Source: Protonemura montana (Eukaryota > Arthropoda > Insecta > Plecoptera > Nemouridae). From it: a stretch of 64,000 nt of DNA. The stretch is from the NCBI GenBank assembly GCA_947568835.1, contig OX387609.1, positions 2,298,001 through 2,362,000 of the forward strand. Reading direction: 5' to 3'. Positions within the stretch are counted from its first letter, which is position 1, and each line of letters starts with the position of its first letter. The notes below the pieces were generated by a model. That model ran no database searches. It was given only the letters and a program-made list of their open reading frames with translations, and had not been told where the DNA came from. This document shows positions 1 through 64,000 of the stretch, piece by piece. The position numbers were made by a program, and so were the translations under genes.

Positions 1-999
1 TGTTCCCACCCGTTCACCGCTCAGTGCCATCGCAACCAACGAAGCTACGTCCACCAACAGACGCAAAACCTCGGATACGATCAGTTGGACAGACAACGGT
101 GACGTAGACAGCGTCAAGAATACGGTCAGATTATAACAACCTGCCACAAAGCTGAACAAAAACCGTGCGGCTGCAAGGAATGCCCCAAATCCAAGCGAAG
201 CGTTGATCTCTACGCAAATATCGCCCAACTCTTGGTGAGCCGATTTCATCGTCGTGATCATCGCTCTGCGACCGGTCTCGGACGACAAATCGAACGAGAA
301 GAGGTCATCTCTCGGGATCTTCTTTTCGAGAAGCAAATCAGGGTTCACCTGCAGATCAGCATCTTCGAGCAGCGAGCCGAGATGGCGGTTTACGGCGTCG
401 TAACGCGACCTCACGACGATGACGACGCCCACGTACTGTATGACCACGAACATGCAGATGACCAGCACTAGAGCGTTGCCCAAGGCGATGGGAAACGGTG
501 TGCTGTAAAATTTCACGTCAACGTTTGGCGAAACGAATTGCATTGCTAAGAAAAAAGCGAAGAGGTCCATCCCGATGATGCCGTATGCTCCGGCGATCTG
601 CATCCACAAGATCTTTCTGAAGTAATCGAAAGGATTGCTCATCGGCTTGAAGAGAGCGGCGTCGACGCGGTTTAAAGAGTCCACGAGGCGTTTCACCACC
701 GGTCCAAGATTCAAAGACGCTCGGATTGCCACGAGGCACGATGCGGTAGCGGTAAAGTGGTGGAGGCCGCGGGGTAACATTGTGTAGATGCGAAGTCCTG
801 CGTTGAGGCTAAGACAGATGGAGTACCAGTTGGCGAGCTCGTTGGTGATCAGGGTGGCAATGAGCACTACGCTGTAGCATAATGCCGGCCACGATTTGGT
901 GAAATTTTTGGTGAAGGGAGCCAGGCCTGTGGATCGGTATGCGTGGAATATCGGAGTAATGGATATGGGACCGCTGATCGTGTAGGGTGAGGTCTTCAT
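1..999 (-). CDS. Gustatory receptor, 7TM chemoreceptor (partial, continues past left edge)
   Basis: Read on the minus strand from the ATG at 999-997, with an in-frame TAA four codons upstream that fixes the start. The frame stays open for 333 codons to the window edge. Hydrophobic segments lie near residues 37-55, 130-152, 170-196, 268-297 and 303-326, with a weaker one near 80-97. The intracellular loop carries VNRHLGSLL (203-211) and AHQELGDICVEIN (254-266), which are typical of the arthropod Gr (7tm_7) family. In that family these proteins are ligand-gated cation channels of chemosensory neurons, with an intracellular N-terminus. The last transmembrane helix and its usual TYhhhhhQF signature are absent here and should lie in sequence or exons beyond base 1. 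The ligand cannot be told. Family assignment is by pattern recognition only; GRL proteins of other invertebrates are the main alternative. Confidence 0.82.
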   Translation of the reverse strand, partial: MKTSPYTISGPISITPIFHAYRSTGLAPFTKNFTKSWPALCYSVVLIATLITNELANWYSICLSLNAGLRIYTMLPRGLHHFTATASCLVAIRASLNLGPVVKRLVDSLNRVDAALFKPMSNPFDYFRKILWMQIAGAYGIIGMDLFAFFLAMQFVSPNVDVKFYSTPFPIALGNALVLVICMFVVIQYVGVVIVVRSRYDAVNRHLGSLLEDADLQVNPDLLLEKKIPRDDLFSFDLSSETGRRAMITTMKSAHQELGDICVEINASLGFGAFLAAARFLFSFVAGCYNLTVFLTLSTSPLSVQLIVSEVLRLLVDVASLVAMALSGERVGT

Positions 1000-3900
1000 G
1001 GTGTTGAATTAATGGTAAACAGGGACATGAGGAGGCTTTCTGGTGGTCGGTGGTGTGGTAAAGAGGGTAATGAATGGGAAATTTTTTACGAGAATTGAGT
1101 GGGAAATGGTTGCTAGGGGAGCAAGGTGACAAACAATCTATTCCCTAGAGATTGAGAACAATAGATTTCAAGACATGGTGATATGATGAATGCACTGCAG
1201 AAAGCAAGGTAGAAATCAATAAGACATTTACAAAAGAGTCTTGAAGTTGCTTATTACTTTACCTTATTACTTTGAGTTTGAACCCTTGCAAAAATACCCC
1301 TATTACATTTTGATCTCTTAAATATGAAATATGAAAATGTAAATATTTAAAATTAATAAATGAATAAACTGGAATGAAACTTTGTAATTACAATTATCCT
1401 ATTTTTTTTCTAGATATTGTCATGTTGTGTTGCATTTGCTCTAGAAATTGTCTTTATAATTAAGTTCCAATGAATGAGTTTCAATTCAGTTCAGCCTCAA
1501 ATCCTGGATGTCCAGTAGATTCACATTCACAGCCTGTGACTGAATGGCTCTCTTTTAAAAATACTTTCCAATACATCTGTACTTACAAATAAACCTTTCT
1601 AAATTCTAATCTAAGTGTCAGTGGCCTAGCCATTCTTTTGATACCCGACATTGAGGGACGGGAATTCTAGGCTTGGACCTTGTGCCAGTGGGACATCTTT
1701 GTCTTAATGTAACTTTCTTGCAGGTGACTTTTATTAACACAAACACGTAAGCAGAAAGATATTGGCATTTCTTTTTATTAAAAAAAAAACAAACAATAAT
1801 GTGCAAATAACAAGACGTGTTCATACAGCTAGAGAATCGAAGCAAATTGCTATTTGATACTTAGGTAGGTACGTCTAATTGAATAGGAATGTACGTAAAT
1901 ATTGACCATGAAAAGATTTTTTGTTTGAACACCTCTATGCTGCAACTTGCACCCATAATAATTTGTTTGAATTTCCGTTCATTAGTAAATCGAAACGAAA
2001 CGAGGATAAATCGAATCACTTACATGCAGAGCACAATCTTGTATTTTAAATACATTAAGATTTTATTTGATGGCTTGAATATTGCACCTGTGCCGTCTTT
2101 GGGTACATTGACTAGAACAGAGGTGTTTAAGACATTTTATCTGTCTGCTGTCCACCCTCAAGGTTCATGTGAACAGATACAGCCTTGCCAATTAGATACT
2201 AGCATAGAAAAAAGTTAGGTTAGGTTAGATATACTAGCATACATGTTTACAGAACCTGTAACCTAAGTTTGCAGCACATTTTTCATCATCCAACGTAAGC
2301 ATGTTGGTACAGAGTTGCACACATTTTGCATAAGCTTACGTTTGGTTTGAGTTGCCGCTTTTGGTAAGCTTTATCATAAATTAAAAATTATATTACTACA
2401 ACTTTGCTGAAGGTTTCTTCAACATTCAAGAATACTGCATTTTCCATATTATATACATAATATATATTATCGTTAAATTATTTCATTATTCCCCGCCGTA
2501 ACAGTAATTTCTCTTCGTACTAATAAATATCTTTATAATAAAAATGAGCTATTTTTTTTGAGCTAAAATAGTTGTTTGAACTTTAATCGAATACCAACTC
2601 ACAACTTAGCAATAAGATATGTCCGGTGATAAGCGACGATAAGGCGGAGATATAAATTCGGCCGGCTAATGGACTGAATCATCTTGGACGCAAACTAGAC
2701 TCCGAAATTTGATCGGACCCCAAATCCTGCGATTTCGTATTGTCATGGCGAGAAGCTCGACATCGGCTGGTTTCAGACAAACTGGATCACAAACGGCAAG
2801 CGACCATCATTTCAAGAAATATTTCTGGTAACTACTTTACCTGCATTACCGGTCTATTACCAACGAAAAAATTCAACATGAATAAAAATAGCAATTTTAT
2901 ATTAGCCTAAGCTAATAGGATATTTAAAGCTAAATTAGCTAATATTGTATTAGCTACAAAAATAAATAGTGTGCCTAAAAGAAAATGTTTATTTTTACTT
3001 TACCATAAAGCAACTGGCTAGTTACCGACACTAAGCCATGGAGTTGCAACTGGTAGTAGTAGTAGTAGATAGCAACTAGTAGATAGTTCATATTCACAGA
3101 TGATTCATCAAGAATTTCTATTTTCTTATATCAAAGGCCACATTGTCATTTCTATCGTAAGTTTGTCTGAAACGAACGTCAGTCGGTCCTAAAAAAGCTC
3201 CCGTCACACTTATAGGTATTCCACGCGAGGTGGCATATTGTAATAAACGTACCCGCTTGAAGGTAGTGGTACGATCTAACCGCTTTCTGCTTCAATACAA
3301 AAAATATTCTTATGTTGAAAGTTTAAACAGAGGTATGAAAAATAAAACATATCATTGCATTTACATTAGAGATATTTAGCATTTCTCTTGAGCTACGAAC
3401 AGTTAAAGACGACGGTTTACCTATCTAAATAGTTATTTTATTAATAGCTTATTATTTATTTAGTTATTTATGTATTTTATTATTATTGTTATTATTATTG
3501 GGTGTGTTGGTTGAGTCCAAGTAGCAATAAGTTTATGCAGTACGCAATCTTAAATCTATCCTATACCGATACGTAATCAATCGATTTAGTTGGCTATTCG
3601 TATTCGGCAAAGCAAAATTGTGCAAGTTACTCACAATTCTCTGATGAAAGTTATTGATTTGTTTCACAATGACCGTGCTTTTGAGCCTCCAAGTGTGAAT
3701 GGAAAAATTTCACGCAATATCTATTCTGAACTTCTTGCCTGACCAACGGCGCAAAATGATTTGAGTTGCAAAACATTTGGTGCAATGCACAAACTAAAGA
3801 TTTCCAATAATTCCCAGCGTATGAATTTCATTTCTTACATTACATTTGTAGAAATCAATTCTATGAGCGAGACCCAGGTAATCAAGTTAAGAAATCTTTT

Positions 3901-5123: not shown

Positions 5124-8100
5124 CTGCAGACACAATTGCCTTTCACTAACTTGCACTAACTTGCACTAACTTGCACTAACTTGCACTAACTTGCACTAAC
5201 TTGCACTAACTTGCACTAACTTGCACTAACTTGCACTAACTTGCACTAACTTGCACTAACTTGCACTAACTTGCACTAACTAGTAGCTAACTATTTGGGA
5301 CTAAATATTTGGGACCCAAACTGTTTGGTGGCATTGCTATCAGCAAGTACTATCAACTCTACCACACTCCAAAGTAAATACTTGCAAATTATGCTATGAA
5401 ATACACCACTGAGTTAATAGACATCGCCAGAGGGTCTCTGCTTCACAAGAAATGGCAGTCATAAAACTTCACGCACAAAAACAGAGAATGCAACACCGAT
5501 GTTTTCGGTGTTGACAACTTTAATTTGATTATTTCTTGTAGATCATTTGTATTTAAGACTGTTTTTAGCTCAATTCGACTTTATTAATGCTAACCTCAAC
5601 GGATGATAAGCATGTATCGAAATTTTGAGTCGTAATTATTTAATTTAAGAGGCTTGCTGAAAAGAATGGCCACATTTGCCTTCGGGTGACAATTTACCCG
5701 GCAGAGAGTTAAACATTAACGCTGGCCTAACTATACCAATTAACTCAATGATTCGATATAGCACACTTGGTGTTTTTTTAAAATTACTTGAATGCAGCTC
5801 AAATGCAATTCAGTGACTTACAGCGTTCATAAAAGCTTGGGAAGCCCGGTAATGCAAAACTGCTAAAAAATCCCTCTCTTACCTTATCAGGACTCTTCTC
5901 TGGCCCATAATAAAAGTTGTTGGTCTTGTTCTGCGCTGGCCAATCGGGAGACGCTAGAGATTCCTCGCTGTTTGACAGTCGCTGGTTGATTCCTCGGGGT
6001 CCGTTGACGCTCTCGTCTGTAGACACCTGCATCGGTGAACTGCCGGGCACGAAGTACGCTGGCGCAGTCGCAGGTTGATCTGCGTGCCGTGATTCTAAAC
6101 TGCAGTCCGACGCAGATCGTGACCTAGTACAGCAGGAGCACACTTTCATTGATCTATTACGTTTAAGTTTGAAGAATACGTTGGGAAATTTAGTTGTTCT
6201 TTACTTAGCATTCATAACCCATTTCAAATAGTTTTTGTTAAAACTAGTACTAAGTTTAGATCAAGTAGACATGAGTCTAAAATCTATTCATACCCCATTA
6301 TTTATTATATGTAGTGTTAGTTAACAGAGCCTTGTCTTGCTAACGAGCTGTTAGCTAACAGAGCCTTGTCTTGCTAACGAGCTGTTAGCTAACAGAGCCT
6401 TGTCTTGCTAACGAGCTGTTAGCTAACAGAGCCTTGTCTTGCTAACGAGCTGTTAGCTAACAGAGCCTTGTCTTGCTAACGAGCTGTTACCTGATGACTG
6501 GTAACAGAGACTCTGGGGTTCGTGGGGCAGTCGGCGTTGACAGGACGTCGGCATGGTTACGATCTTGACGGTCGCCGAACGAGTTGTTAAGCGGGTGAAG
6601 TGCCACGCCCTGGCTCGAACCCAGGACCTCGTCGTCGTAGAAACGGTACCTGGCCGTGCAAACAGTGTTAGTGCTCGTCAAGTAATTAACAGACTGTTAA
6701 CCAACAAAAAACATCTTCCGATTCTTTTTATTATTATGAACACTATAACCGTCTCAAAAATTGATGCCCAAACGGGGACTCAAACCCCGATCTCCACCTG
6801 TCGCGGGTGTTGCTCTAACCAATTGAGCTACTTGGACCCCGATCTCCACCTGTCGCGGGTGTTGCTCTAACCAATTGAGCTACTTGGACCCCGATCTCCA
6901 CCTGTCACGGGTGTTGCTCTAACCCATTGAGCTACTTGGACCCCGATCTCCACCTGTCGCGGGTGTTGCTCTAACCAATTGAGCTACTTGGACCCCGATC
7001 TCCACCTGTCACGGGTGTTGCTCTAACCAATTGAGCTACTTGGACCCCGATCTCCACCTGTCACGGGTGTTGCTCTAACCAATTGAGCTACTTGGACCCA
7101 GATCTCCACCTGTCGCAGGTGTTGCTCTAACCAATTGAGCTACTTGGACCCCGATCTCCACCTGTCGCGGGTGTTGCTCTAACCCATTGAGCTACTTGGA
7201 CCCCGATCTCCACCTGTCGCGGGTGTTGCTCTAACCAATTGAGCTACTTGGACATTGGCTTTTTGAGACGATTTTAGTGTATTTGTCCACATTTGGACAT
7301 CAATTCATAAGACGGTTATAGTGTTGTTAATAATAATAAAAAAAGTTATAAAAAAGTTTTCTATCCCAAAAAAATAAATTGAGTACTTCGTCACTTTGAA
7401 TGATTAGCTGAAATAAAAGCCGAACTAAATCGACTCACCGATACGCGTAGATGTCTTCTCCAAGACTGTCATCATCGCTGTCGTCGCTGGCAACGAACTG
7501 TACGCGAAGTTCAACTGAGCCGACCTGCGCGCTCAGCAACGCTACTGCCTCCTGGTGGCAGGCCGCCGAAAGATCCCGGCCGTTCACTCCCAAGATGGCG
7601 TCACCGACAAACAGCTGCCCGGACCGAGCTGCCGGGCCTGCCGGCTCCAGCTCCGAGATCAGGATGGGAACCCCATTCTCTCGACCACCCTGTCCAGGAA
7701 CAATCCGGTCAGATCGGTTCAGGTTTAATCAGAAAAATATCTGTTCTTAACTGTTCAATAAAAGTTCCAATCTCTGTTAAGGCTAGTTACACTAAATTAT
7801 TTGATTCTAAATTTAGCTTTTAGCCCACAGAAACATCTGAATTTCCTTGCATATGATTGGAAGTCGTCATGGCAATTGTTGTGGCACTGGTTTAATGGCG
7901 TCAGTGAATGAGTGGATGGCAATGAACCTAATATAGACTAGAAGGGAGGAGGGGAAACCCGGTGCCGGCACGTAGCCTACTCCTGTCGAAGAGCACCAAG
8001 GGGACCACCGGCTTAACGTCCCTTCCGAAGGACGGTACAACGCGAACAACAGGATTCCTCTACAAATCCATGCTGTCGAGAGGTTGATAAGCAAGGCGAG

Positions 8101-11100
8101 TGAAGTTGCTGTACTAACTTTCATCCCTCCAACCTCTCTCTCGAACAGAACTGGTCATGTGTATGATGGTCACCCATCCAATACCTGACCCAGGGCAGTG
8201 TTGGTTAACTTTCATCCCTCCAACCTCTCTCCCGAACAGAACTGGTCATGTGTATGATGGTCACTCATCCAATACCTGACCCAGCGCAGTGTTGCTTAAC
8301 ATTGGTTACTTTGCTAGCACTCTAAACGTACCGTGATTGACAGGCCGAGTCCCTCCCCAGAAGCCAGCTGCAGGGTAACTGTGCGTGGTTCACCAAGAGC
8401 TCCCTGCGCAGCGGGCAGCGCTGCGCGCGACTGACTGACAACGCCGCGGCCGCGGCAAGCTCGTACGATCGTTTTGTGTCGGTGAAGCAAGATCTCGGAC
8501 TCGAGCTGACGCCACAGACGGTCTCGGACATCGCCACGCATTTCACGACCAAGCAGTTGCAGCTGCTGGATCCTGGAAAACAATTTTGAAATAGGAATTT
8601 TTGTAAAGAAAAATAATTTTATGAACATTATTATTATGAACACTATAACCGTTGAGTACAGGTTATAGGTAGAGAAACAACGTTAATGTTACAGTCTCTG
8701 CGTGAAAGATGGCCGCCAAATGACTACCTTACCGGCAAAAATGCAGAGTACCGGAACATCACGTTAAGTGGAGCCACTGTCGTATGAAATTTAATTTCGA
8801 TATTTCTTGTAGGTTACTCGCTTTTGAGACTTTTCATGTTTGAGACTCCATCAATGTTTACCTCAAAGTTTGATATACACGTAACGATATTCCTACAAGA
8901 TGTTGATGCAACTAACCTGCCTGCCAGCTCCTTGTCCAGATACTTTGCCGCCAGCTTAGCGCCGCTGACTTCGCTGTGTAGCGCTAACAAAGTGTTACGC
9001 AGAGCGGCGTTCTCCTGACGAAGTTGCCACGCCTCGCTACGTAGGCTAGCGCCCTCGGCAAGACCCGATGTCAGCAGAACATCTCCAGCACCTGCCAGAC
9101 AATGGGTAACGTTTCTTAGATGAAATCTTATTTCAATTGCAAACGCTTGTAATCCGCGGTTTTTTTTTTATTAACAACGCTCTAACCGTCTCAAAAATTG
9201 GTGCCCAAATGGGGACTTGAACCCCGATCTCCACCTGTCGCGGGTGTTGCTTTAACCCATTGAGCTACTTGGACACTAGCTTTATGAGACGATTTTAGTG
9301 TATTTGATGAGAATGATCTCCATGGAGTAGAATCATGAGGCTGTGGATACTCTTCTCCTAATTTTCTACTCCTTGGAGATCCATCATTCTCATGAAATAC
9401 ACTAAAATCGTCTCAAATAGCCAGTGTCCAAGTAGCTCAATGGGTTAGAGCAACACCCGCGATAGGTGAAGATTGGGGTTTGAGTCCCCGTTTGGGCATT
9501 TTTGAGACGGTGATAGCGTTCATAATAATAAAAAATGGGTAACGTTGTTATCTTTTGCAAGTTAGCTTTTTAGCCTGGTGTTTTAAAAAAGCAATTTTAA
9601 ATATGTCGTCTTCTTTTTTTAAGGTCTTAATCAAAGGTTTTAATTTGATCAAGTATTCACCCTTGATAAAGTACCAAGAAGAGAGTACAAAATGTTATAA
9701 TAAAGTTAAGTTATTGACAGTAAAGTGAGAAGTGGTTGGAGCATAGAAAGCTGGTTAGCGTTTAAAGCATTGGCAGTATTGTTTTGAGATGTAGATGAAG
9801 ATTTATAACCGTGGTTGCATAAAAGAAGGTACGTACAGCGAGGGACTTACGTTTTAATCGCACGCAACAAATAAAATCTCCGCTCACCTGTCTCAGGTGC
9901 TACGTGAATCGCTGGGATTGGGGGACCGAAGTAAAGCGGAGACCGCATGCAATGACTGGTAGTGGATGAAGTGGAGACGATAGCATGCTTTGCTACGAGA
10001 AATAGGTTAAGTCACAAAGCAAGACATATCATGCGGTTAGAGATGTCAAAACAACAGCATAGGAGATTGATTGAATGAGGACTGAAGTTACCGCTGAGGT
10101 TAAATTAGTAAAATTAGTTTCTTACTAGGAAAGGACTTGCAGCTTTCTTACGCTCTCACTGACTTTGCAAGGGACAGGTATGGGCTATGCAAAATTTACG
10201 ACATGGGTCAGGCCTTGCCTAGATTGGCTATTCTGTGGTCTTGCATAGAATACCAAATCAAGTCAGAAGAACATCCTAATAAGAAAAGTTACTAAGAAAA
10301 AAATTGCATGGCATTGCAAGAAAGTATGTAATACTTTAAGAATATGATTGCTGAGACATGGTTGGGTATGAAAGTTATATGAAAGTGGTATGATTATTAT
10401 AATAGGATTAATTTCTGACATAACTTAACAGGACTCATTAGTTTCAGTTAAAATTTCCACCAAGTGCAGGATTAAATTATGAGAGATGTTTGTCAAAGAG
10501 TGTCTATTTTAAGAATTATCAGTGAAACTGATTCGTCCGTCAATGCTCTTCCCAAGCCAAGTCCATACCTTTCGAGCGAGGTTGGTGCACAGGCGAGTTG
10601 TGGATCTCGGTCTCGAAGCGCTGCCGAATGTGATGTGAGTTGACGTCCTGCACGGACAACTGCTGCAGTTGCGTTGAGTGAAGTCGCAACAAAACGCTGT
10701 GAAGTTCTTGTTCGAGCGTCGAGTGCCGGGCTTGTGCATCGATCAACTCTGCACGCAGGTGAACTAGCTCGGCCTGCAAACCAAACGTCAACAATGTTGT
10801 TAGCTTTGCGAGATAAGCTCATATGTAGTGTAACTTAAATGTTCCAAACAATTTTTTGTTTGCAGTTCCATTAGTTAAAATGGCCTACCCCACTGAATAA
10901 ATAGTAATTTTACGATAAGAAAGGCCAACAAAAATGGCTTTAATGACTATTTGCTCTTATGGGCGAATTTTGTTAAAAGGCCGCTATTTCGGATATTTTT
11001 CTTGGTGGTTCTAATCCAGAAAATACAATACTTGCACCATGAATTGTCCAAACTGTCGATTGGAGCCGTAGTAGAATCGTCGATTCCCACAACATCGCCT

Positions 11101-14100
11101 ACCCTGAACCACTCTCCAAATAAAGCTGATCTTCGATGATGGTCATCCATTCAATACCCAACTTCTGCACAATGTTGCTTAACTTTGTTGAATGTTTAAT
11201 AGCATTGTAAGGAACTCGCTCATTTGTTTAAGTATCTGTTTTAGGGTGAATGACAGGAGTAACGAACCATGAACCAGCAATGCATACTTTTTTGCAATGA
11301 AGTCATCGATCATCAATCATTAGTCTGTTATTTACCACATGGGGCAGAGGCACACAGACAAGGCTAAGCGGTGGCCGGTCCTTGGTGCTGTTGGACAGGA
11401 GCAGCCAACACAGTGTGTCAAAGTGACAAGGCTAAGCGGTGACCGGTAATTGGTGCTGTTGGACAGGAGCAGCCAACACAGTGTGTCAAAGTGACAAGGC
11501 TAAGCGGTGGCCGGTCATTGGTGCTGTTGGACAGGAGCAGCCAACACAGTGTGTCAAAGTGACAAGGCTAAGCGGTGACCGGTCCTTGGTGCTGTTGGAC
11601 AGGGGCAGCCAACACAGTGTGTCAAAGTGACAAGGCTAAGCGGTGACCGGTCCTTGGTGCTGTTGGACAGGAGCAGCCAACACAGTGTGTCAAAGTGACA
11701 AGGCTAAGCGGTGGCCGGTCCTTGGTGCTGTTGGACAGGAGCAGCCAACAAAGTGTGTCAAAGGGACAAGGCTTAGCGGTGGCCGGTCCTTGGTGCTGTT
11801 GGACAGGAGCAGCCAACACAGTGTGTCAAAGTGACAAGGCTAAGCGGTGGCCGGTCCTTGGTGCTGTTGGACAGGAGCAGCCAACACAGTGTGTCAAAGT
11901 GACAAGGCTAAGCGGTGGCCGGTCCTTGGTGCTGTTAGACAGGAGCAGCCAACACAGTGTGTCAAAGGAACAAGGCTAAGCGGTGACTGGTTCTTGGGGC
12001 TGTTGGACAGGAGCAGCCAACACAGTGTGTCAAAGTGACAAGGCTAAGCGGTGGCCGGTCCTTGGTGCTGTTGGACAGGAGCAGCCAACACAGTGTGTCA
12101 AAGTGACAAGGCTAAGCGGTGGCCGGTCCTTGGTGCTGTTGGACAGGAGCAGCCAACACAGTGTGTCAAAGGGACAAGGCTAAGCGGTGACTGGTTCTTG
12201 GGGCTGTTGGACAGGAGCAGCCAACACAGTGTGTCAAAGTGACAAGGCTAAGCGGTGGCCGGTCCTTGGTGCTGTTGGACAGGAGCAGCCAACACAGTGT
12301 GTCAAAGTGACAAGGCTATGCGGTGGCCGGTCCTTGGTGCTGTTGGAAAGTTTCTGTACTCTCAGAAGCGAGCAAACACAAAGACAGGTAAAATGGCCCA
12401 CTAAAAATGATGCCAGGAAAGAATTTCCAAAGTTATTTTTGATATGTTTGTGTCCCTGTAGACTTCGTTTGTGACGGATGACAGACAAGGAAAGAAGACA
12501 ACTTGAAGAATGGACTATTGTCATCGCCCTAAACTCGTGTCTGTGCCAAGGTAAATGTTTGCCTCCCTACAGGATCCTACGTCACGTGATGTCTACGTCG
12601 TCTAGAGGCTGATGACTTGTGAAACGACTGATTACCGATGAAAGACCCAGAAGGGCTGACTCCCTTGTAGCACCTGATGGCATATTTTTACAAGAGCTGT
12701 CAACAATTGCTTGACAAAAAAGTCCCTGAAGGAATCAAAACCGAGACGGGAGCGTCTTGAGTTTGGGTTAACGGAAGCTTGTCGAGTGAGAGGATGATTT
12801 ATCATCGTAAGGAGCTGAAATTAGCTGCGTCAGTTGGCTGCTCTTTGACTTGTGTAGCCAATGATGATGCTGATGAATTTCAAGTGCATCGCTGATAGTA
12901 TCTCAACCCTGAAACGTTTGGGGAGCCTAGAAAGTGGAATCGCTCCAAAGAATCATCTACAAGTACCGCAGTGTTGGTTAGCTTATTTATATTCAAGGTG
13001 AGTCTGTCAACAAATTTGTAGAAGAAAATGTAGAAAATATAAAAACTCGTAAATAAAGGTAGATTGAGAAAGAAATCTACGCCGGAGCCAACGAGTTTGA
13101 AGCTGATTGATTGATTATTGTGTTTAACGACGCACTGTTTGGACAATGGGCCATGTGACACTGGTCTAATAGCGTCGCTGAATGAGTGGATGATAATGTG
13201 GATGAAGATGAACCTAACCTTACTTAGAAAGGAGGAGGCTAAACCCGGTGCCGGCACGTAGCCTACTCCTGTCGAAGACCAAGGGGACCACCGGCTTAAC
13301 GTCCCTTCCGAAGGACGGTAAAACGTGAACAACAGGATTCCTCCACAAATCCATGCTGTCAAGAGGTTGATTGGCAAGGCGAGTGAAGTTGCTGTACTAA
13401 CTTTCATCCCTTCAACCTCTCTCCCGAACAGAACTGGTCATGTGTATGATGGTCACCCATCCAACACCTGACTCAGCTCAGTGTTGCTTGACTTTCATCC
13501 CTCCAACCTCTCTCCCGAACAGAACTGGTCATGTGTATGATGGTCACCCATCCAATACCTGACTCAGCTCAGTGTTGCTTAACTTTCATCCCTCCAACCT
13601 CTCTCCCAAACAGAACTGGTCATGTGTATGATGGTCGCCCATCCAATACCTGACTCAGCGCAGTGTTGCTTAACTTCAGTGATCTCATGGGGGCCTGTGT
13701 TTCCAACACAACAAACCGTTCGGTCACGAGTGAGAAGCCAGCGAAAATGTAGGCCTCTCAGGAGACCGGAGATGACATCATCTAAGATAAGAATTATAAA
13801 AAGGGCTGGCGAATGAAAATGAAGACGTCAAAAATTACCAATTGAGACAATTAATTATCCATTTTAAAAGAGAAGCTCGCATTCGTGTACAGGCAATGAT
13901 GATGTACGCGCCGAATTAACGAAAGAAACGTATATTTTTTTACGAGATGGGGAGCGACGTGAAACGACTTTTACGAGTGTAATAATTCTGCTTTAGAGGT
14001 TTTCAAAACGCGGTGGAATTTAGCAGCCGTCGCAGAGCTGCAGAGGCGGCTCGTAAATTCCAAACGAATCTTTTCGCAAAATATTTCTCGCGTGCGACTT

Positions 14101-52267: not shown

Positions 52268-55200
52268 TGGGTGTTTTTAGCGGAGCTCGGGCATTCGCTT
52301 CTGAACTCTCCGACGAGAACGTTGTGCTGTCTTCTCGTCTCTTGGCCAAGACAACTCTGTGGAAGATCAACTTGCTTGCTGTTGGCTCAAAATGTCTCTC
52401 AAATTATTTCGGTAAGTTGACATTTTACGTTTTTTACAATTCAACTAAATAATTCAACCGTCGCAGCTCGACTCTCGGTCGCCACATTTATGTTACTAGT
52501 ATGCATTAAAATTTACCCGAGGTCATTTAACCCAGCCTTTTTTATTATAAATAATCTATTTGGCTTCAAATTATAACAGCAGAGAAAATACGGGGACGCA
52601 ATATCCGAGGCGCTATTACAATCATTATTAGATTTACTGCTATCGTTTATTTCAATATCCACTTCATTTTGACATCATTTTTGCAATTAACACTTCAAAA
52701 CGCTGTTGTAACTTTGCTGAACGAATGGCGTACAATTGCACTTGTTGCAGGCAACGAGGAGTCGTGGTTAGAATGTGTTTCATTGTCCAATAATGGCGTG
52801 TGTTTTTCAGACATGGGACGCCTTCAACACGAGAGCAGCAACATGGAGGAACATTTCCCGCCCATGAAAGACAAGATGGAGTCGTCGCTTCATTGTTTGG
52901 GTGAGTCTTTCAATGCTTTGTCATTCCTCTTCATTTCGCAAAACCTGCTACTGCTATTGGTTGTATATTCCTCGCGTGTTGGCTAGTTTATTTAATTTCT
53001 GGTTACCTGCGTTTCTTTCTTTAGAAGATTAGACCTTAAGAGTTTAGACAATCATTTAGTCAATCCGATCTCCACCTGTCGCGGGTGTTGCTCTAACCAA
53101 TTGAGCTACTTGGACCCCGATCTCCACCTGTCGCGGGTGTTGCTCTAACCCATTGAGCTACTTGGACCCCGATCTCCACCTGTCGCGGGTGTTGCTCTAA
53201 CCAATTGAGCTACTTGGGCACTGGCTTTTTGAGAGGATTTCAGTGTTTTTGATGAGAATGACAGATCTTCAAGGAGTAGAACCACGAGGCTGTAAATACT
53301 CACAGTCACTCTGATTCCAGTGACGCTATATCACGTCACAACCATTCAATCTCGAGTAACTCCAATTTGACGTTGGACGCGTTTTATTTAGTTAAAATAT
53401 TATTTAACTTGCATCAATTTTGAGACGGTCGTAGTGTTCGTAATAATAAAAAAGCGTTTTTTTGCTTCATAAAGACTCTCCCTTGCCGTGAAGTTTTTCC
53501 TCGAGTTACTTGTTTTTGAGAGTGCAAACGTTCCATTTGTTCAGATGGTTTGTTTTAAAGAACAACAATTCGTCACGTCCTGCCAAACTTCCGAAGTATC
53601 ATCCCGGGTTCCAACAGATTTGATTTCTTATTTCAATTGAACACACGACCTTGTATCTTTCACCATCGTAAGGAAACATAGCACCACTTGTAGCCAAGAC
53701 TTGGATCCTAATTTTGGAAAGGGTTTTTTCAATTGAGAACTCTCGTTCCACGAATGGAGATTCCATCATCCTTCATCACCTGTTGCCTTGCTCTCCAGTA
53801 CTTTGCCAGTCTCCTCCCCTGTTTGTATCGTTGAAGTAGTCTGAGACACAGCGTGCTTTTTTGTCATCATTTAGGCTCATTTCAATTCCTGGGGCTGCCC
53901 CAATCGACTACTGAATTTAACAAAATTTATATTGTGTTTTCTCCTTTCATATTGCCGAACAACATTTAACGATGACATATGTTTTATTATTAGAAACACA
54001 AAAAACCTCTCAGAAATTGGTGATCTTGGTTTTACTCCTTGGAGATTCGTCGTTCTCATCAAATTCACCAAAATCCTCTCCAAAGTAAGTCTTCTGTCCA
54101 AGTAGCTCAATTGGTTAGAGGAACACCCGTGACAGGTGGAGATCGAGATTCCAGTCCCCGTTGGATCATCCATTTTTTAGAGATTATTAGTGTTCTTAAT
54201 AAAAAAATACTTTGCCCATCGCAAGCATCGAGTCACCGAGGTTGAATGGATGTGGATAGAATCAGAGTGACTGTCACCATGCACGGTCTCTTGGTCATTC
54301 ACCCGTCATTCGTATTCGACGCATTAAAATCCTCTTGAAAATATCTTGTCCTATTAGCTCACTTGGATGTTTGAGCAACACCAAGACTAGACGGACCGGG
54401 TTCGAGTCCACGAGTAGCCACTAATTTATGTTTGGTTAATTATGTTCCTAACAATAAACTACCCCGGGGACCAATTGCGAGCAATTGCATCAATTTTGAA
54501 TTCCACAATCAAATTAAAACTGAAGCTGGTTATTGATTAGAGTGTACCTTGGTTCGTTGCAGGCCCCGCCGAGATTGAGTCTACTTCGACGCCAAGACTC
54601 CGACGCCGAGACTCCGACGCCGAGACTCCGACGCCGAGACTTCGACGCCGAGACTCGCCCGCGTTTCTCGTCGCTATCGGAATCGGGACACGGGCGCGTA
54701 ATCTGTTACCTCGGTCGGCCGGGTCGTTTGCGTTCAACGTCAGCTAAGTGGTCTAGGGTTAGCGCTACAAGGCCTCACACAAACAAACAAACACACACAC
54801 ACACACACAACCAGTTAGGCAACAGGTATCTACAGGTCGCAGTCATCCACGAGCCAACGGGTCCACGAGCCGACGAGTCTTCATCTTCTGCATGGCATGT
54901 GGGCACCGCATGATTGCATGGCATGGGGACATGGCATGGGGAATCAGCTAAAGGGTGGGAGCGCTAGGTTAGGGCGTCGTGTTTTCTTAATGGTGGGTCG
55001 TATGCAGGGGATAAGTAAGGGAAAGCCCAAGTAGATCCCCTGTTCCATCGCGACGAGTGGGGTAACTGGCCTAAAGGGTGGGAGTAGGAAACTTAGCTCG
55101 GCAGGAGGCCTGCTGGTGGGGTTAGGGCAGGTGGAGGATATCGGGGATCCCGGGGCCCAACAGTTATAAATGGGAGGGTTTTTGTTAGGAGTAGGGCGTC

Positions 55201-58200: not shown

Positions 58201-59559
58201 GATGAACGGTTTGTCGTGTTAGAAACACCGGTTCTCGTTAGATCACCAAAGTTAAGCAACACTGTGCTGGGTCAGGTATTGGATGGGTGACCATCATACA
58301 CATGACCAGTTCTGTTCGGGAGAGAGGTTGGAGGGATGTAAGTTAGTACAGCAACTTCACTCGCCTTGCTTATCAACCTCTCGACAGCATGGATTTGTGA
58401 AGGAATCCTGTTGATCGCGTTGTACCGTCCTTCGGAAGGGACGTTAAGCCGGTGGTCCCCTTGGTCTTCGACAGGAGTAGGCTACGTGCCGGCACCGAGT
58501 TTCCCCTCCTCCCTTCTAGGCTAGGTTAGGTTCATCATCATCATCCACTCATTCACCGACGCCATCAGACCAGTGCTGCATGGCACGTTGTCAAAACAGT
58601 GTGTCGTTAAACACCGCAAATAATAATAATAACATAGATGTGTTGCCTAATCTGCGGCCTTTCTTTTCACGCAGGTTTCCACTCTGCCTTGGTTTGGATG
58701 GAAAGCTGTCCGCGGTGGGACGTAATCCGATCTCCTACAAGCGACATCGAGACGTCTCTACAGCAGCGTCGATAGATGTAAGTCGGCATGCGAGCCTTCC
58801 AATACAAGTCCGTAATCTCTCGCCCTAGAATTGGCTTTTCAAAGACGTATCGCGTCAAAAACTGGATACATTTTGTCTCCGTCTAAGAGATATAATCCAC
58901 AGGTTCATGACCAACGAACAAAGCTAATGATAGTTTTTAGACTCATGTCTACTTGATGTAAACTTAGCAATAGTTATATCAAAAACTATTTCAACTGGGT
59001 TTTGAATGCTAAGTGAAGAACAACTGAATTTCCCGACGTTTCGTAACTTGTACCTGTTACTTTATCAAGGGTTCAAGCAGTCCTGACAATACAAAATACA
59101 TTAGTTTTTAAGTTATTGACCCTGATTATTTTCTTTGAATGCATTTAGGAAGCTTGAACTAGGAAATTGGAAAATTGTCAGGACTGCTCTAACCCTTGAT
59201 AAAGTAACAGGTACAAGTTACGAAACGTTTTATACTTTACTAAGCTTTTAAAACCCATTTAAAATAGTTTTTCTACATAGCTAATGTTTTCCCAAGTTTG
59301 AAAACTGGTTTTGCGCAATTTTTCCCGAGTAAACGTCGCTGTCCGGAGCATGTTTTACTGAGTGCAAGAGTCGTCATGTACCTGGCAACGAGTCTAATAT
59401 GACTTTATTCTGTTGTCTTCAGGTGAACTCCACGAGCCGCTGCTGGAATCGGCTTCCTCCGACGAGACCTTGCTTCAAGCCCTGGAAATTGTAGCAAGGA
59501 CGCGCTGTGAGAGTTTTATCGGGGCTCTGAGGAAACGTGGGGCAACTTTTGTTTGTTAG
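52268..59559 (+). CDS. Tentative multi-exon gene(s) or spliced RNA, unrecognised
   Basis: Blocks with good splice signals: to 52411 (donor GTAAGT); 52811-52900 (GTGAGT); from 54563; 56584-56874 (GTGAGC); 57058-57153 (GTAAGC); 57842-57961 (GTACGC); 58675-58777 (GTAAGT); from 59423. Some read like protein: MGRLQHESSNMEEHFPPMKD; RRLSFTIEESDGEDLEEPEP; ELHEPLLESASSDETLLQAL. The block 56584-56874 includes an in-frame 69-bp duplication (RRGFWFDSQYLASRHGNK twice). One chain of compatible phases exists only if weaker donors (GTAATC, GTAACA) are used at 54698, 57089 and 58722. With the stronger donors the frame stops at 57092. It may be one gene, two, or non-coding. Function unknown. Confidence 0.35.
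52811..52900 (+). CDS. Candidate coding exon (MGRLQHESS...)
   Basis: Acceptor TGTTTTTCAG, donor GTGAGT. ATG at 52813 opens 29 codons in phase 1. A second frame, continuing from ATG 52392, is also open, so the reading frame is undecided. Confidence 0.4.
53050..53465 (-). mobile_element. tRNA-SINE with three half-heads
   Basis: Three GATCTCCACCTGTCGCGG units at 53066-53220, then the TTTTTGAGAGGATTTCAGTG arm and upstream part GATCTTCAAGGAGTAGAACC. The B-box side is lost; a GAGACGGTCGTAGTGTTCGT arm remains near 53422. Confidence 0.8.
54025..54245 (+). mobile_element. tRNA-SINE, moderately diverged
   Basis: CTCCTTGGAGATTCGTCG, AAGTAGCTCAATTGGTTAGA, AGATTCCAGTCCCCG, and a GCCCATCGCAAGC tail. Confidence 0.75.
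54290..54500 (+). mobile_element. tRNA-SINE, strongly diverged
   Basis: TATTAGCTCACTTGGATGTT as A box and GGGTTCGAGTCCACG as a good B box, with an ACCAATTGCGAGCAATTGCA tail. Confidence 0.6.
54586..54660. repeat. 14-bp tandem repeat
   Basis: AGACTCCGACGCCG repeated about five times inside the candidate exon that starts at 54563. It shifts frame every unit, which weakens the coding case. Confidence 0.85.
54778..54812. repeat. (CAAA/CA)n simple repeat
   Basis: ACAAACAAACAAACACACAC and on. Confidence 0.9.
54900..55860. other. GC-rich stretch of unknown origin
   Basis: Rich in GGG and in AGGGCGTCG and AAAGGGTGGGAG repeats, unlike the rest of the window in base composition. It could be a remnant of a mobile element, but no hallmark protein motif is clear enough to name one. 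Confidence 0.3.
55868..56228. repeat. 11-bp minisatellite, about 33 copies
   Basis: GCGTTTATTCT and variant GCGTTTTTACT alternate in blocks. The 130-codon frame of FCVYSAFILRL peptides through it is an artefact. Confidence 0.97.
56355..56445. repeat. 12-bp tandem repeat
   Basis: AATGTTTGTGTC repeated about six to seven times with T/C variants. Confidence 0.93.
56584..56874 (+). CDS. Candidate coding exon with 69-bp internal duplication
   Basis: Acceptor CTTTCAG, donor GTGAGC. The frame reads PDNQMPDNNKNFFDFIVANV, CLREQCYQHDWPIVASAHGY, then two 23-residue repeats (GTECRRGFWF / GTQFRRGFWF). The duplication keeps frame. A second, shorter frame is also open. Confidence 0.4.
57842..57961 (+). 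CDS. Candidate coding exon (acidic)
   Basis: Acceptor TTTGTCTGCAG, donor GTACGC. One frame reads RRLSFTIEESDGEDLEEPEP then GFPRDKCRTMEYIRQQNY; another is open too. Codon look favours the acidic frame. Confidence 0.4.
58203..58640 (+). mobile_element. 5S-SINE, single head, complete
   Basis: GAACGGTTTGTCGTGTTAGA, boxes A and C, body, CAGTGTGTCGTTAAACAC. It ends about 45 bases before the block at 58675. Confidence 0.92.
58928..59275. mobile_element. Fold-back MITE-like element
   Basis: Arms about 58981-59090 and 59173-59272 (GTTTCGTAACTTGTACCTGT / ACAGGTACAAGTTACGAAAC) pair with some changes around about 80 bases. The outer TAGACTCATGTCTACTTGAT marks the family end. Confidence 0.82.
59423..59559 (+). 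CDS. Candidate terminal coding exon
   Basis: Acceptor TTGTCTTCAG. After two carry-over bases, 44 codons read ELHEPLLESASSDETLLQAL, EIVARTRCESFIGALRKRG, to TAG. The frame needs a phase 1 intron, met either by splicing directly from 57961 in one frame or from a weak donor at 58722 in another. Confidence 0.4.
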
Positions 59560-61170
59560 TTAATATCTTTCATTGCTTGCTTTGCGGGGCTTAACGTCAC
59601 GTCAGTTCAGAGGCTGTTCAAGTCTCGAGTTCGGGAAATATTCATAATTATTGATTAATTTGTGTGACATGAGAGAAGTTGAGAAAAATTTGGGGACAAG
59701 GCCATTGTTGTTAGACTTCCTGTCCAAGTTTTGGATTGTTGTAGGTTCTTGCTAGAGGCTGTTTCGTTCTTCACAGTTAGATTGGTTCGGTACCGAACCG
59801 TAGTAGGTTTGTTAGGTTTGTTAGGTTTGTTAGGTTTTGGTGTCGAATGGTTGTTTCTTTGTCGCTTTGTCCATCGTTGAGGGTCGCTGGAATTAGGTTA
59901 ATTTGATCTTCTAGTTTTCATGTCCATTTTTTTTTGTCTTCTCTCATGTTGCGTTTTTCTCTTAGCTCGCCTTACGCCTAGAACATTTTGTAATATTGTG
60001 GTAAATAGAGCCAACATAAAATCATAGCAGATCGAGTCATAAGGGAGAGTAGAGTTTCCTCAGATGCTTTGAGATTCATGTGACCAAATTTACAAGCCAT
60101 AGGACTTTATCGCTCGCCTGCATAATGTTCCTGTTTGCACCCGTGAGGCCCGCCTCGGACGTTCGTTTTTCATGGTTTTCGCGCGTCTTAAGTTAAGCTA
60201 ATGCTGGGCGATTGATTATAATCTTCACAAATCACAGATTATAATCGGCCATGACCACTGACCTCACGGAACAAACGCTTGGAAATATCAAATGAATCAC
60301 TCTCACAGTTAGCAAGATTTACGTGAACACAAACACGTGAATAGTAATTCAGATATTGTTAAACATTTGAATTGTATTTGATGGCGATATTATTGTCATT
60401 ATATATATATATTGTGTTGTGATATAAAAATTTACAACCCTATAGCCTTTTAATTGGGATCCCTGGATGAAAAGAAATTTCACGAATTTGCGGTGCTTGT
60501 AAATCTGGAATTCCTGTAACTTCCACTTCCGAATTTTCCTTCCGCCTAAAGGTACCTCAGTATATTCTTATTATTGTACACATTAAGTTACTCAAGGTAG
60601 CAAGAAGTCGTATGTGTGTTGGGAATTAGACGCCGTTTAACCCCTTCAGAAAATCCTGCTGGTTTAGACATTCACGCTTCTCTGGTATGTTTATTATTTT
60701 AGTCGTAATTGTGTCCTTTTAATGCATTCTCAGTTTATAAGTAATTTTTGTGTGTTTTGATGTGATTTATTTTATTTGGAGCCTAGATTTAAATTGTTCT
60801 TGTATTTCTTTTAATTACTCGCAATATTTTTCATTTCTTTATGTTCGAATTTGCGCGAATGGCCTTAAATTACAAGGTCCATTGCTGGGTTCTTGATTGG
60901 CTTAGCGGGCATGATAGTAGCCTCCTAAGGGGTGTTTAAATGTCAGCCATGTTTAATCAGAATGTGCCGCTGGTTGGGCCGGACCCCTACAAGCAGCCCA
61001 TTGAGATAGTCGAATTGAAACATCTTGTAAAATGATGACAACTTAACGAGGTTTCTTGAGGTAGAAGGAAATTTTGTGCCCGAATGTTCTAAATGGGTTT
61101 GAAATTATCCACGACACGATTTCTTGCTATCTTGAGTAACTAAACCCGGCTTCAACTTCCAAACGAAAAC
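59560..61170. other. AT-rich spacer with repeat scraps
   Basis: GTTAGGTTT short tandem near 59804-59836; (AT)n at 60401; dispersed-repeat pieces at 60600-60660 and 61015-61170. No gene seen. Confidence 0.45.
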
Positions 61171-62395
61171 CTATTGATTGAATGATTGATTATTGGGGTT
61201 TAACGACGCACTGTTATACAACTGGGCATGCGGCACTGGTCTAATGGCGACGGTGAATGAGCGGATGATTATGAGGATGATGATTAATCTAACCTAGCCT
61301 AGAAGGGAGACGGGGAAACCAGGTGACTACACGTACCCTACTTCTGTTGAAAAGCTTGGACCACTGGCTTAACGTCCCTTCCGAAGGACGGTACAACGCG
61401 AACAACAGGATTCCTCCACAAATCCATGCTGTCGAGAGGTTGATAAGCAAGGCGAGTGAAGTTGCTGTACTAACTTTCATCCCTCCAACCTCTCTCCCGA
61501 ACAGAACTGGTCATGTGTATGATTGTCACCCATCCAAAACCTGACTCAGCGCAGTGTTGCTTAACTTTCATCCCTCCAACCTCTCTCCCGAACAGAACTG
61601 GTCATGTGTATGATGGTCACCCATCCAATACCTGACCCAGCGCAGTGTTGCTTAACTTTCATCCCTCCAACCTCTCTCCCGAACAGAACTGGTCATGTGC
61701 ATGATGGTCACCCATCCAATACCTGACCCAGCGCAGTGTTGCTTAACTTTCATCCCTCCAACCTCTCTCCCGAACAGAATTGGTCATGTTTATGATGGTC
61801 ACCCATCCAATACATGACCCAGCGCAGTGTTGCTTAACTTTCATCCCTCCAACCTCTCTCCCGAACAGAACTGGTCATGTGTATGATGGTCACCCATCCA
61901 ATACCTGACCCAGCGCAGTGTTGCTTAACTTTCATCCCTCCAACCTCTCTCCCGAACAGAACTGGTCATGTGTATGATGGTCACCCATCCAATACCTGAC
62001 CCAGCGCAGTGTTGCCTAACTTTGATCCCTCCAACCTCTCTCCCGAAAATACCTGACTCAGCGCAGTGTTGCTTAACTTTCATCCCTCCAACCTCTCTCC
62101 CGAACAGAACTGGTCATGTGTATGATGGTCACCCATCCAATACCTGACCCAGCGCAGTGTTGCCTAACTTTGATCCCTCCAACCTCTCTCCCGAACAGAA
62201 CTGGTCATGTGTATGATTGTCACCCATCCAAAACCTGACCCAGCGCAGTGTTGCTTAACTTTCATCCCTCCAACCTTTCTCCCGAACAGAACAGGTCATG
62301 TGTATGATGGTCACCCATCCAATACCTGACTCAGCGCAGTGTTGCTTAACTTCGGTGATTTAACGAGAACCGGTGTTTCCAACACGCCAAACAGG
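61170..62395 (-). mobile_element. 5S-SINE with about ten tandem heads
   Basis: 3' end GGGGTTTAACGACGCACTG, body 61215-61470 with a small deletion, then about ten 91-bp head units to the 5S start (CACGCCAAAC) at 62388. One unit near 62035 is shortened. Largest 5S head array in the window; its 5' end lies about 480 bases before the NUDT9 start. Confidence 0.93.
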
Positions 62396-62728
62396 GAGTA
62401 CCCCCCCTTCATTTTCTCGCAAATAAATGGAAACCAAATTTTTTTATTGTTATGTCTGTTTCGTTCAGTACATCACGTATTTTTGAAGGCTAGAGCTTAT
62501 GAGTTTTGTAGGCTTTTTCTCATTTTTGTCCAGGGCTGGGCCAAAAATTTAGACCATCACAGATCGAAAGCCCATCACGTACTCTATCATCTGTAAAAAT
62601 TTCAAGGGAGTAGCCCCCCTTCATTTTCTCGCAAATAAATGATAACACAAATTTTTTTATTGTTAGCCTGTCTCGTTCAGTACATCACGTATTTTTGAAG
62701 GCTAGCGCTTATGAGTTTTGTAGGCTGT
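62396..62728. repeat. Tandem duplication (about 212 bp) of the dispersed repeat
   Basis: CTTCATTTTCTCGCAAATAA recurs at about 62407 and 62619, each followed by TCAGTACATCACGTATTTTT and GCTTATGAGTTTTGTAGGCT. Reverse matches lie at 50.04-50.24 kb. Confidence 0.85.
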
Positions 62729-62872
62729 TTTCTCGTTGCGCTATGTTGAGTTGGTGCCTTTAGATGGCGTTTTAGATTTTGCGAGCTAAGTATCCACTAG
62801 TGCTCACGGTGTGGTACGGCTGAAAAAACTAGTGACCGCAACACCTGTCGAAACTTCGCAGACAGTAGGGTT

Positions 62873-63754
62873 ATGTCAACGACATTAACGCCGGTTAGAC
62901 AAGCATTGAGAAAAATGATTCACCAGAAATGTCGAGGAATTTATTATCCTAATACCAATAACACAATTAAACGTTTTCCAGTGCCTGACGACAAAGTGAA
63001 ATGGGACATCCGGTTTGATGATTACATCCATGTCAAATACACTGACAAGTCTTTGCTGGGTAAACCTTGCGCAGACTTGGAAATTGGCCATCCCAACTTT
63101 CAGCCACTTTGGAACCTAATCGACGGTCCAGTTAATAGAGCTAGTTTCTCGTCTGTCTATCAAATCGTACAAGAATATCCACAGAATATCGGTGGTCGCA
63201 CGGGAATTTCCGGGAGAGGATGCCTTGGTCGTTGGGGACCTAACCATGCAGCAGATCCAATAGTTACCCGATGGAAGAGGAAAAGTAATGGTGATATCGA
63301 ACATCACGTTGCCTCTGGTGATCCAATACTTCAGTTTGTCAGCATTCAGCGGAAAGACTGTGGTGAATGGGCAATTCCTGGAGGTATGGTCGATCCATTC
63401 GAAATCGTAACGACTACTTTAAAACGAGAGTTCATGGAAGAGGCTTTAAACTCCTTAGAATTCATTCCAAGTGACAGAGAAATCATCCAGAAGAGTATTG
63501 ATAAGTTCTTCAGTGGAGGAACAACAATCTATGAAGGTTACGTTGACGATCCAAGAAACACAGACAACGCTTGGATGGAAACGGTAGCAATGAATTTTCA
63601 CGACTCGACTGGTGATACAGTTGGATTCGACTTGAATGCGGGCGATGATGCAGCAAAAGTTCGATGGATTGACATTTCTAAGGAGCTGGTTCTTTATGCT
63701 TCACATATTGACTTCATTTCAGCAGTGGCACATGAGAGGAAAGCACATTGGTAA
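62873..63754 (+). CDS. NUDT9: ADP-ribose pyrophosphatase, NUDT9 type, intronless
   Basis: 293 residues in one exon. It hydrolyses ADP-ribose to AMP and ribose 5-phosphate; the vertebrate enzyme is mitochondrial, and the same fold forms the NUDT9-H domain of TRPM2. Family blocks: GRGCLGRWGPNHAADPI (115-130), KDCGEWAIPGGMVDP (161-175), YVDDPRNTDNAWMET (223-237), LYASH (274-278), AHW end. The Nudix box runs from G171 (GX5E with E177) to R185-E186-F-M-E189-E190, keeping all metal-binding glutamates, unlike the changed RIL box of human TRPM2; the family glycine in VDPGE is F176 here. The N-terminus is basic (RQALRKMIHQKCRG), compatible with mitochondrial import but short. The vertebrate gene has several introns; none here. 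AATAAA repeats at 63945-63970 follow. Start ATG 62873 is the first in frame. Confidence 0.93.
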   Translation: MSTTLTPVRQALRKMIHQKCRGIYYPNTNNTIKRFPVPDDKVKWDIRFDDYIHVKYTDKSLLGKPCADLEIGHPNFQPLWNLIDGPVNRASFSSVYQIVQEYPQNIGGRTGISGRGCLGRWGPNHAADPIVTRWKRKSNGDIEHHVASGDPILQFVSIQRKDCGEWAIPGGMVDPFEIVTTTLKREFMEEALNSLEFIPSDREIIQKSIDKFFSGGTTIYEGYVDDPRNTDNAWMETVAMNFHDSTGDTVGFDLNAGDDAAKVRWIDISKELVLYASHIDFISAVAHERKAHW

Positions 63755-64000
63755 TTTACGTAAAGGTTCGTTATAGGTCCTCGTATTATATGGTCGTCAT
63801 TCCTGAAATGTAGCAAAGTTTTATTTCTTTAAAGAACTACTGCTGCTTTAGAATTTACAAAAAACTGAACTGCTAGTTATGCTTTATATCGACAAAACAA
63901 CGACTATTTTTATATTGTACTATACTAGAATGACATGAACTGATAAATAAATAAATAAATAAATAAATAACTACATCAATTAAATATACGTATCTGACTA

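Follow-up and report, generated by a model that had tools for sequence, protein, structure and literature searches.

Tandem arrays formed from an inner part of a mobile element are known from several systems, which are described here as far as the cited parts of the reports go. In squamates, part of a short interspersed element (SINE), often including the head with a promoter box, occurs in tandem with SINE sequence adjoining it, and this applies to three SINE families within one clade (sSat1, sSat2 and sSat3; PMC10702118). Orthologous pairs of such loci from two rattlesnakes had the same unit number in 74% of cases and differed by one unit in 14%, while some differed by at least 10 (PMC10702118). 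In SVA and LAVA elements a variable number tandem repeat (VNTR) forms the inner block of a non-autonomous retroposon and changes its unit number at the DNA level at microhomologies; that study also drew on eight copies spread by segmental duplication (PMC4432496). Tandem repeats were likewise attributed to SINE parts, including the transfer RNA (tRNA)-related region, for Hy/Pol III, Xenopus satellite 1 and the mouse B1-derived VNTR (PMC9659126), although the tRNA origin of Hy/Pol III has been doubted (PMC10702118). The Tetris/TIR-220 foldback transposon (PMC4079207; PMC9659126) and the repeats borne by an oyster Helentron (PMC7492417) are further examples of mobile elements that carry or yield tandem repeats. 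A 5S-derived SINE has been described in an insect (PMC3272025). Here we analysed a stretch of 64,000 nucleotides, called the window, from the stonefly Protonemura montana (assembly GCA_947568835.1, contig OX387609.1; C12:2298001-2362000; 258 Mb in 34 contigs). It contains three families of dispersed elements with an inner tandem block: a 5S-headed SINE with a unit of 91 base pairs (bp), a tRNA-bearing element with a unit of 52 bp and a third family with a unit of 60 bp. For the first two of them, both headed by a small RNA, we show that the unit number changes in place.

Whereas the sSat SINEs are tRNA-related (PMC10702118), the carriers in the stonefly are a 5S-headed SINE, a palindromic tRNA retroposon and a family with a box-less unit, and 42 filled copies of one insertion are available. 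The VNTR units of SVA and LAVA are GC-rich, 30-50 bp long and part of a composite element (PMC4432496), whereas the unit here is a piece of a small-RNA-like head. The passages of PMC9659126 on Hy/Pol III, Xenopus satellite 1 and the B1 VNTR contain no series of copies sharing one insertion, as is present here. Tetris and Helentron are listed as DNA-transposon types, while the small-RNA-headed families of the stonefly show retroposon-like target duplications of variable length. Literature searches judged by title and beginning of the abstract gave no fitting match for a palindromic or inverted-dimer tRNA retroposon, nor for an arthropod or crustacean 5S-SINE whose head is tandemly repeated. Satellites derived from SINEs and VNTRs that change at microhomologies are already known; the 5S-headed and the palindromic tRNA carriers as well as the 42-copy series are without a match in the literature searched. 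The passage from a transposon copy to a satellite is usually inferred from end states. With 42 filled copies, an empty site and 13 read copies at most 3% apart, it is possible to order and date the events by which units arise, multiply and are lost, and the tRNA unit, the 60-bp unit and a second 5S unit provide parallel cases in one genome.

Positions 57.8-62.6 kb of the window belong to a repeated host segment that was also found at 20.98 Mb (L035) and 23.32 Mb (L036) of contig C1 and carries two 5S-SINE insertions in opposite orientations (sites A and B). Allowing up to three mismatches, the 5′ flank of site A was found at 44 places and the 3′ flank at 47 places, of which 43 pair. Forty-two pairs are filled and one, at C16:15283617 (L039), is empty with a single target GGGAACTTAATTGATGTGTTG. 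The spacing of the flanks in filled pairs equals 464 + 91(n-1) bp, n being the unit number. By spacing, 15 copies have one unit, five have two, nine have three, four have four, three have five, one has six, two have nine and three have ten. Each of the 27 multi-unit spacings deviates by no more than 6.5 bp from a whole unit number, and 11 of the 15 single-unit spacings are exactly 464 bp, while one is 39 bp short. In 12 of the 42 filled copies the units were read, and the number read agreed with the number derived from the spacing in all 12; for the other 30 copies the number is that given by spacing only. One 5′ flank and four 3′ flanks were unpaired, and one of the latter belongs to L035, where 10 units were read directly. 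In all, 13 copies were read (the window, L035, L036 and ten further ones).

Over the body and the 3′ flank (about 340 bp) the 13 read copies differ by 0-3.0% (mean 1.7%). Nevertheless, unit number differs in 7 of the 11 pairs with a divergence of at most 0.6%, these pairs not being independent. Copies L041 and L048 have identical flanks, but two and four units, respectively, of unlike make-up. A divergent last unit is shared by L042 and L043 and is missing in the close single-unit copies L045-L047, which points to loss, whereas the duplication of a four-unit block in L035 points to gain. Among the 34 of the 42 copies on contigs with a length entered, unit number showed no clear relation to how far a copy lies from the end of its contig (rho -0.15, P 0.41).

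Unit number also varies between copies at two other sites. Site B has about 10 units in the window and 13 and 3 units in two other copies, and an ordered block of three marked units is common to the window and L035; in L036 the head is missing and the upstream flank diverges from a unit edge onward. Site C, a tRNA array within the host segment of site A, has three units in the window, six in L037 and seven in L038. Units 1-6 of L037 correspond in order to units 2-7 of L038 by marker bases compared by eye, with at least one base difference. Since copies of the same insertion at sites A and C differ in unit number, the number changes after insertion, as DNA, and this was found for the 5S as well as the tRNA family.

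Several further observations concern the host segment itself. The window from about 52.7 to 62.6 kb is part of a repeated segment, one flank sequence of which occurs at 47 places on many contigs. No protein explaining its spread was found among eight open frames of 49.3-63.8 kb, of which only a NUDIX match passed the Pfam cut-off. Sequence adjoining site A has, by eye, the look of an exon together with its splice sites. A transposon with terminal inverted repeats was also considered for the convergent pairs of 5S arrays, and this was rejected: the two pairs that were read are separate SINE insertions in one repeated segment.

We consider it highly probable that all three families are dispersed mobile elements whose inner block became an array by DNA-level errors at short direct repeats. 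The block would first have been duplicated by strand slippage or microhomology-mediated repair between bounding direct repeats of 3-10 bp: AAGTTA and ACC for the first and second 5S units, respectively, GTYCRAGT for the tRNA element, and CTTKCTGCT for the third family. Once at least two units are in register, the number would rise or fall by whole units within the inserted copy, and blocks of several units could be duplicated. This change itself is what was observed in the 5S and tRNA families, slippage or unequal exchange being its presumed cause, and it appears to be fast relative to point mutation. Copying of the element or of its host segment would then transmit arrays that already have several units. 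As such a process acts on any block with suitable edges, the promoter boxes of RNA polymerase III (Pol III) would be passengers and not the cause. A common process of slippage or unequal exchange had been proposed in an initial annotation of the window, and the AAGTTA edge together with the whole-unit steps among the 42 filled site-A copies supports it well.

The same annotation placed the unit edges of both SINEs at short internal homologies. For the 5S-SINE, AAGTTA is present at both unit edges and is the only exact match of at least 4 bp at offset 91 in the 413-bp single-unit consensus. The second 5S unit is about 92 bp long, with GGGTGACC joined to ACCGAACGG at an ACC edge; this junction was found at 2,165 places (up to two mismatches), and the 92-bp spacing recurs at several of the listed places. 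Duplication in the 5S family has thus involved two distinct pairs of edges. The edge of the tRNA element coincides with the best 14-bp windows at offset 52 (e.g. GTGTCCAAGTAGCT and GGGTTCGAGTCCCC), a weaker homology. The proposal can be extended to the third family, whose block is bounded by CTTKCTGCT (by eye), and an exact 6-bp run CTGCTG was found at offset 59 in the single copy at 18444. Diverged relatives at 18444, 19317 and 34829 have the 60-bp block only once.

Several results weigh against this explanation. The tRNA edge matches at only 8 of 14 positions without an exact run of 4 and is therefore weak, and the 5S edge is not the best at offset 91, other ungapped 14-bp windows scoring slightly higher (7/14). 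The third family was examined by counts and anatomy only, and its copy at 19317 has no exact 6-bp run at offsets 52-67. Furthermore, 5S units differ by 3.94% within and 4.11% between arrays (292 of 2000 shuffles as low; 11 arrays of at least three units, some being paralogues or parts of one array), and units of four tRNA arrays differ by 4.79% within and 5.13% between arrays (328 of 2000 shuffles). Plain local amplification of one unit would be expected to yield closer units, so these near-equal distances argue against it. Neighbouring tRNA units are not more alike than in random order (1031 of 2000 shuffles). Distances within an array reach 6.6%, compared with flank differences of 0.6-1.2% between close copies; much of the unit diversity therefore predates the spread of the segment, or units were imported. 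Adjacent 5S units, on the other hand, resemble each other more than expected for a random order, 14 of 2000 shuffles giving equally close neighbours.

The arrays were found genome-wide and are real; they are not limited to the window. All lengths are given as assembled. Tandem Repeats Finder recovered the 91-, 52- and 60-bp arrays in the window at the positions annotated initially. In each of the three families one to many copies of the inner block stand in register. Whole-genome pattern searches (up to one mismatch for 5S and tRNA junctions, so that diverged copies escape counting) gave 23,210 unit-unit and 6,911 unit-body junctions for the 5S-SINE and 12,853 unit-unit and 2,635 unit-end junctions for the tRNA element. 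The 60-bp unit, searched with a 43-base piece at up to three mismatches, was found at 2,469 places. Reversed patterns gave no match in any of the five junction and unit searches. 

Within the window, where a unit was counted if at least 90% of its length matched, ten 5S arrays have 1, 1, 1, 2, 2, 3, 3, 5, 6 and 6 units, one of the 3-unit and one of the 6-unit counts being two parts of a single array (61476-62351). Seven of 12 tRNA arrays have one unit and the others 2, 3, 8, 9 and 14. A comparison sample of 190 kb from 23 places elsewhere, chosen at round coordinates, contained nine 5S arrays (1, 1, 1, 1, 1, 1, 2, 4 and 15 units) and six tRNA arrays (1, 1, 1, 1, 1 and 2 units), according to which the window is richer in arrays than the sampled places. 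Arrays with a period of at least 20 bp cover 7.2 kb of the window and 9.4 kb of the sample; 4 of the 27 such arrays in the sample consist of the 5S or tRNA unit. Judged by exact-match spans, C1:62179 would have about 20 5S units, C1:1119328 more than 50 tRNA units and C5:648411 more than 25 60-bp units, in each case only if the gaps are diverged units.

In the 5S element a head formed by the first ~48 bp of 5S is followed by n 91-bp units and then by a body some 290 bp long. Rfam matched 5S_rRNA (RF00001) and tRNA (RF00005) at nine places each in the window (E ≤ 0.1, one of each under the gathering score), the 5S matches covering the full model (1-120) with up to 63.7 bits. The element, which we take to be of the SINE3 type, ends in AATAAT or AATCAATC. 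Exact target duplications of 15 and 10 bp flank two of 13 copies, whereas mismatched pairings never reached 8 bp. Three further copies are those of site A, with a 13-bp target repeat (AACATAATTGATG and AACATAGATG) interrupted by a 3-bp difference, and no exact repeat of at least 8 bp was found at the ends of the remaining eight. Judged by its 5S head, tail, target duplications and empty site, the element behaves as a SINE. As in SINE-derived satellites, the tandem units are a part of the SINE, and SINE sequence is found at one or both ends. Apart from the SINE, 5S genes in both orientations were noted at a contig end (G000 C11:70-105743), with a spacing of about 9.5 kb that is first regular and then less so; they are perhaps linked to other ribosomal RNA genes.

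In the tRNA-bearing element n 52-bp units lie between a left inverted arm and a part formed by the remaining tRNA sequence and the right arm. ARAGORN recognized the tRNA-like head at seven places. Its A box is TAGCTCAATTG, and a B box, GGTTCGAGTCC, was identified by eye at the junction of the last unit and the end. Target duplications of 13, 12, 11, 11 and 8 bp were found in 5 of 13 pairings, compared with 2.6% of mismatched pairings that reach 8 bp; the 8-bp duplication is doubtful. In copies with duplications an outer segment some 60 bp long and the inverted repeat stand at the start, and a TAA-rich tail at the end. The A and B boxes of the head and the target duplications of variable length are shared with tRNA-derived SINEs, but in duplication-flanked copies the tRNA lies internally, in either orientation, and not at the 5′ end. 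The longest copy (9114-9533) is an imperfect palindrome with 82% identity over 380 aligned positions of 420 bp, and the folding energy of its strand is -265 kcal/mol, compared with a mean of -101 for 50 mononucleotide shuffles. The other copies look like deleted forms of it. The label tRNA-SINE, as used initially, is therefore not appropriate for what is an inverted-repeat element and not a plain SINE. A foldback or miniature inverted-repeat transposable element of the DNA-transposon class was considered and rejected as well: inverted arms are present, but one end has the extra outer segment, the other the TAA-rich tail, and the duplications vary in length. At three places on C1, tRNA junctions on opposite strands are separated by 0.6-0.8 kb, which suggests arrays in both arms. 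Table 1 gives an overview of the copies in the window.

Table 1 Copies of the three element families in the window, with positions counted from its first nucleotide
Feature	Position	Strand	Basis
5S-SINE, 1 unit, site A (1 of 42 filled copies)	58201..58636	+	Rfam, flank pairing
5S-SINE, site B (host segment of site A), 9 whole units plus a partial one of 57 bp	61183..62392	-	
5S-SINE, 6 units of 91 bp at 37779-38324	37730..38619	+	
5S-SINE, 5 units at 44185-44639	44135..44913	+	
5S-SINE, 1 unit	24004..24440	+	
5S-SINE, 3 units at 13403-13675	13106..13724	-	
5S-SINE, 2 whole units and part of a third	32206..32733	-	
5S-SINE, 2 units, head without 5′ part	7880..8306	-	
5S-head array, ~92-bp unit (ACC edge) mixed with 91-bp unit	14283..15009	+	
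tRNA-like element, 14 units of 52 bp at 35276-36003, mixed D-loop haplotypes	35242..36079	+	
tRNA-like element, 9 units at 6786-7253, inverted repeats at both ends	6722..7340	-	
tRNA-like element, 8 units at 30920-31335 and one partial unit	30844..31474	+	
tRNA-like element, 2 units	45388..45620	-	
tRNA-like element, 3 units, site C, host segment of site A	53065..53438	-	
Palindromic tRNA-like element, outward heads at 9223-9274 (-) and 9426-9477 (+), 13-bp AATGGGTAACGTT at 9101-9113 and 9534-9546, TAA-rich tail	9114..9533	.	
tRNA-like element, 1 unit, 11-bp flanking repeat AACACAGGATA	43409..43678	-	
tRNA-like element, 1 unit, 11-bp target duplication, head inverted relative to outer part	29249..29478	-	
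Third family, ~9 units of 60 bp at 36818-37375, CTTKCTGCT edges	36773..37526	+	
Third family, single unit	19317..19546	+	
Third family, single unit	18444..18729	+	

Another explanation, which we regard as possible although less probable than array formation within inserted copies, is that arrays were mainly inherited from a few multi-unit sources and are only trimmed in place. Indeed, 5S arrays are located in less diverged insertions than single heads (one-sided P = 0.037; 0.014 with paralogues collapsed by hand). At array loci the private substitutions per site amount to 0.93% in units and 0.81% in bodies, both values being lowered by paralogues among the loci, and so the units would be about as old as the insertions; the loss of the divergent last unit in L045-L047 fits trimming, too. 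Growth also occurs, as seen in the duplicated block of L035, and this is not covered by trimming. Arrays may thus have been present at or soon after insertion and have been remodelled later.

At single-unit loci private substitutions are 2.6% in units and 3.8% in bodies. The 5S units are closer to their consensus than the bodies, which had suggested concerted evolution of units between loci. This was not upheld on private substitutions, which at array loci are alike in units and bodies, so that the differences between bodies seem to be mostly differences between subfamilies. A broader proposal, which we consider rather unlikely, is that the dispersed arrays form one exchanging library, in which units are swapped between unlinked loci while bodies diverge independently. 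If true, it would explain why units differ within arrays about as much as between them, why 6 of 7 independent groups of 5S arrays are polymorphic for 21A/21G and why L041 and L048 carry unlike sets. With 21A/G included, the pairs of variants shared between independent 5S arrays exceed those of all 5000 random placements; without this site, sharing was not beyond chance (P = 0.36 for variants, 0.11 for pairs). For shared pairs in tRNA arrays P was 0.024 with site 17 and 0.75 without it.

The mixed composition of arrays and the 21A/21G polymorphism would also fit reverse transcriptase slipping or switching templates between units or RNAs at insertion, and one tRNA array mixes, by eye, D-loop haplotypes known from single-unit elements. 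An origin at the RNA or cDNA step is nevertheless unlikely, as it cannot account for unlike unit numbers in the same insertion with the same flanks, and LAVA source and new copies were found unchanged relative to each other in the cited part of PMC4432496.

Still less probable is selection for stronger promoters, the alternative raised initially, by which more heads would give more Pol III transcription and more copies, so that arrays are favoured. The 91-bp unit presumably covers that part of the 5S match where the internal promoter boxes of 5S genes lie, and the lower divergence of array-bearing insertions (P = 0.037; 0.014) is in line with such selection. The statement that both SINE units carry Pol III boxes applies only partly to the tRNA element, the 52-bp unit of which has box A and lacks box B. 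By consensus, neither type of box was found in the 60-, 41- and 68-bp units (the last two are described below), the scan covering A and B boxes only. Since these units form arrays as well, a promoter in the unit is apparently not required. Moreover, unit number varies from 1 to 10 by spacing among copies of an insertion that is a passenger of a larger segment. Selection for stronger promoters is thus not supported and is needless for arrays, although it may additionally influence which of the elements act as active sources; a general tendency of this genome would explain the arrays better. Mis-assembly, collapse or expansion of arrays is a most improbable explanation, as the length of most studied arrays (0.1-1.4 kb) is small relative to long reads, independent copies have unit variants and ordered blocks in common, and several contigs are chromosome-scale.

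Besides the three families, two further dispersed arrays were found. A 41-bp unit is present in the window at 39038-39535 (12.1 copies), at L012:1848-2195 (8.5) and at L033:2124-2876 (18.4), and a 68-bp unit in the window at 11357-12347 (14.6 copies), at L032:240-561 (4.8) and at L033:4021-4213 (2.8). To the eye the 68-bp unit is similar to a portion of the 5S-SINE body, and two of its three locations are close to a 5S-SINE or a fragment of one. A 34-bp unit is repeated five times at 6315-6489 of the window, near a piece at 6242-6282 similar to L036. Other features noted are a chemosensory receptor domain (7tm_7, E 5.4e-10) at 1-1008 (-) and a PDZ domain (E 6.7e-12) at 7438-7728 (-) of the window. 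The receptor domain and the mitochondrial code, with AGA read as S and ATA as M, both mark the host as arthropod-like. Elsewhere, a COX1-like sequence with a score equal to that of the mitochondrial contig C34 and a partial one were observed at G000 C4:5760925-5777755, representing either nuclear mitochondrial DNA or a join error.

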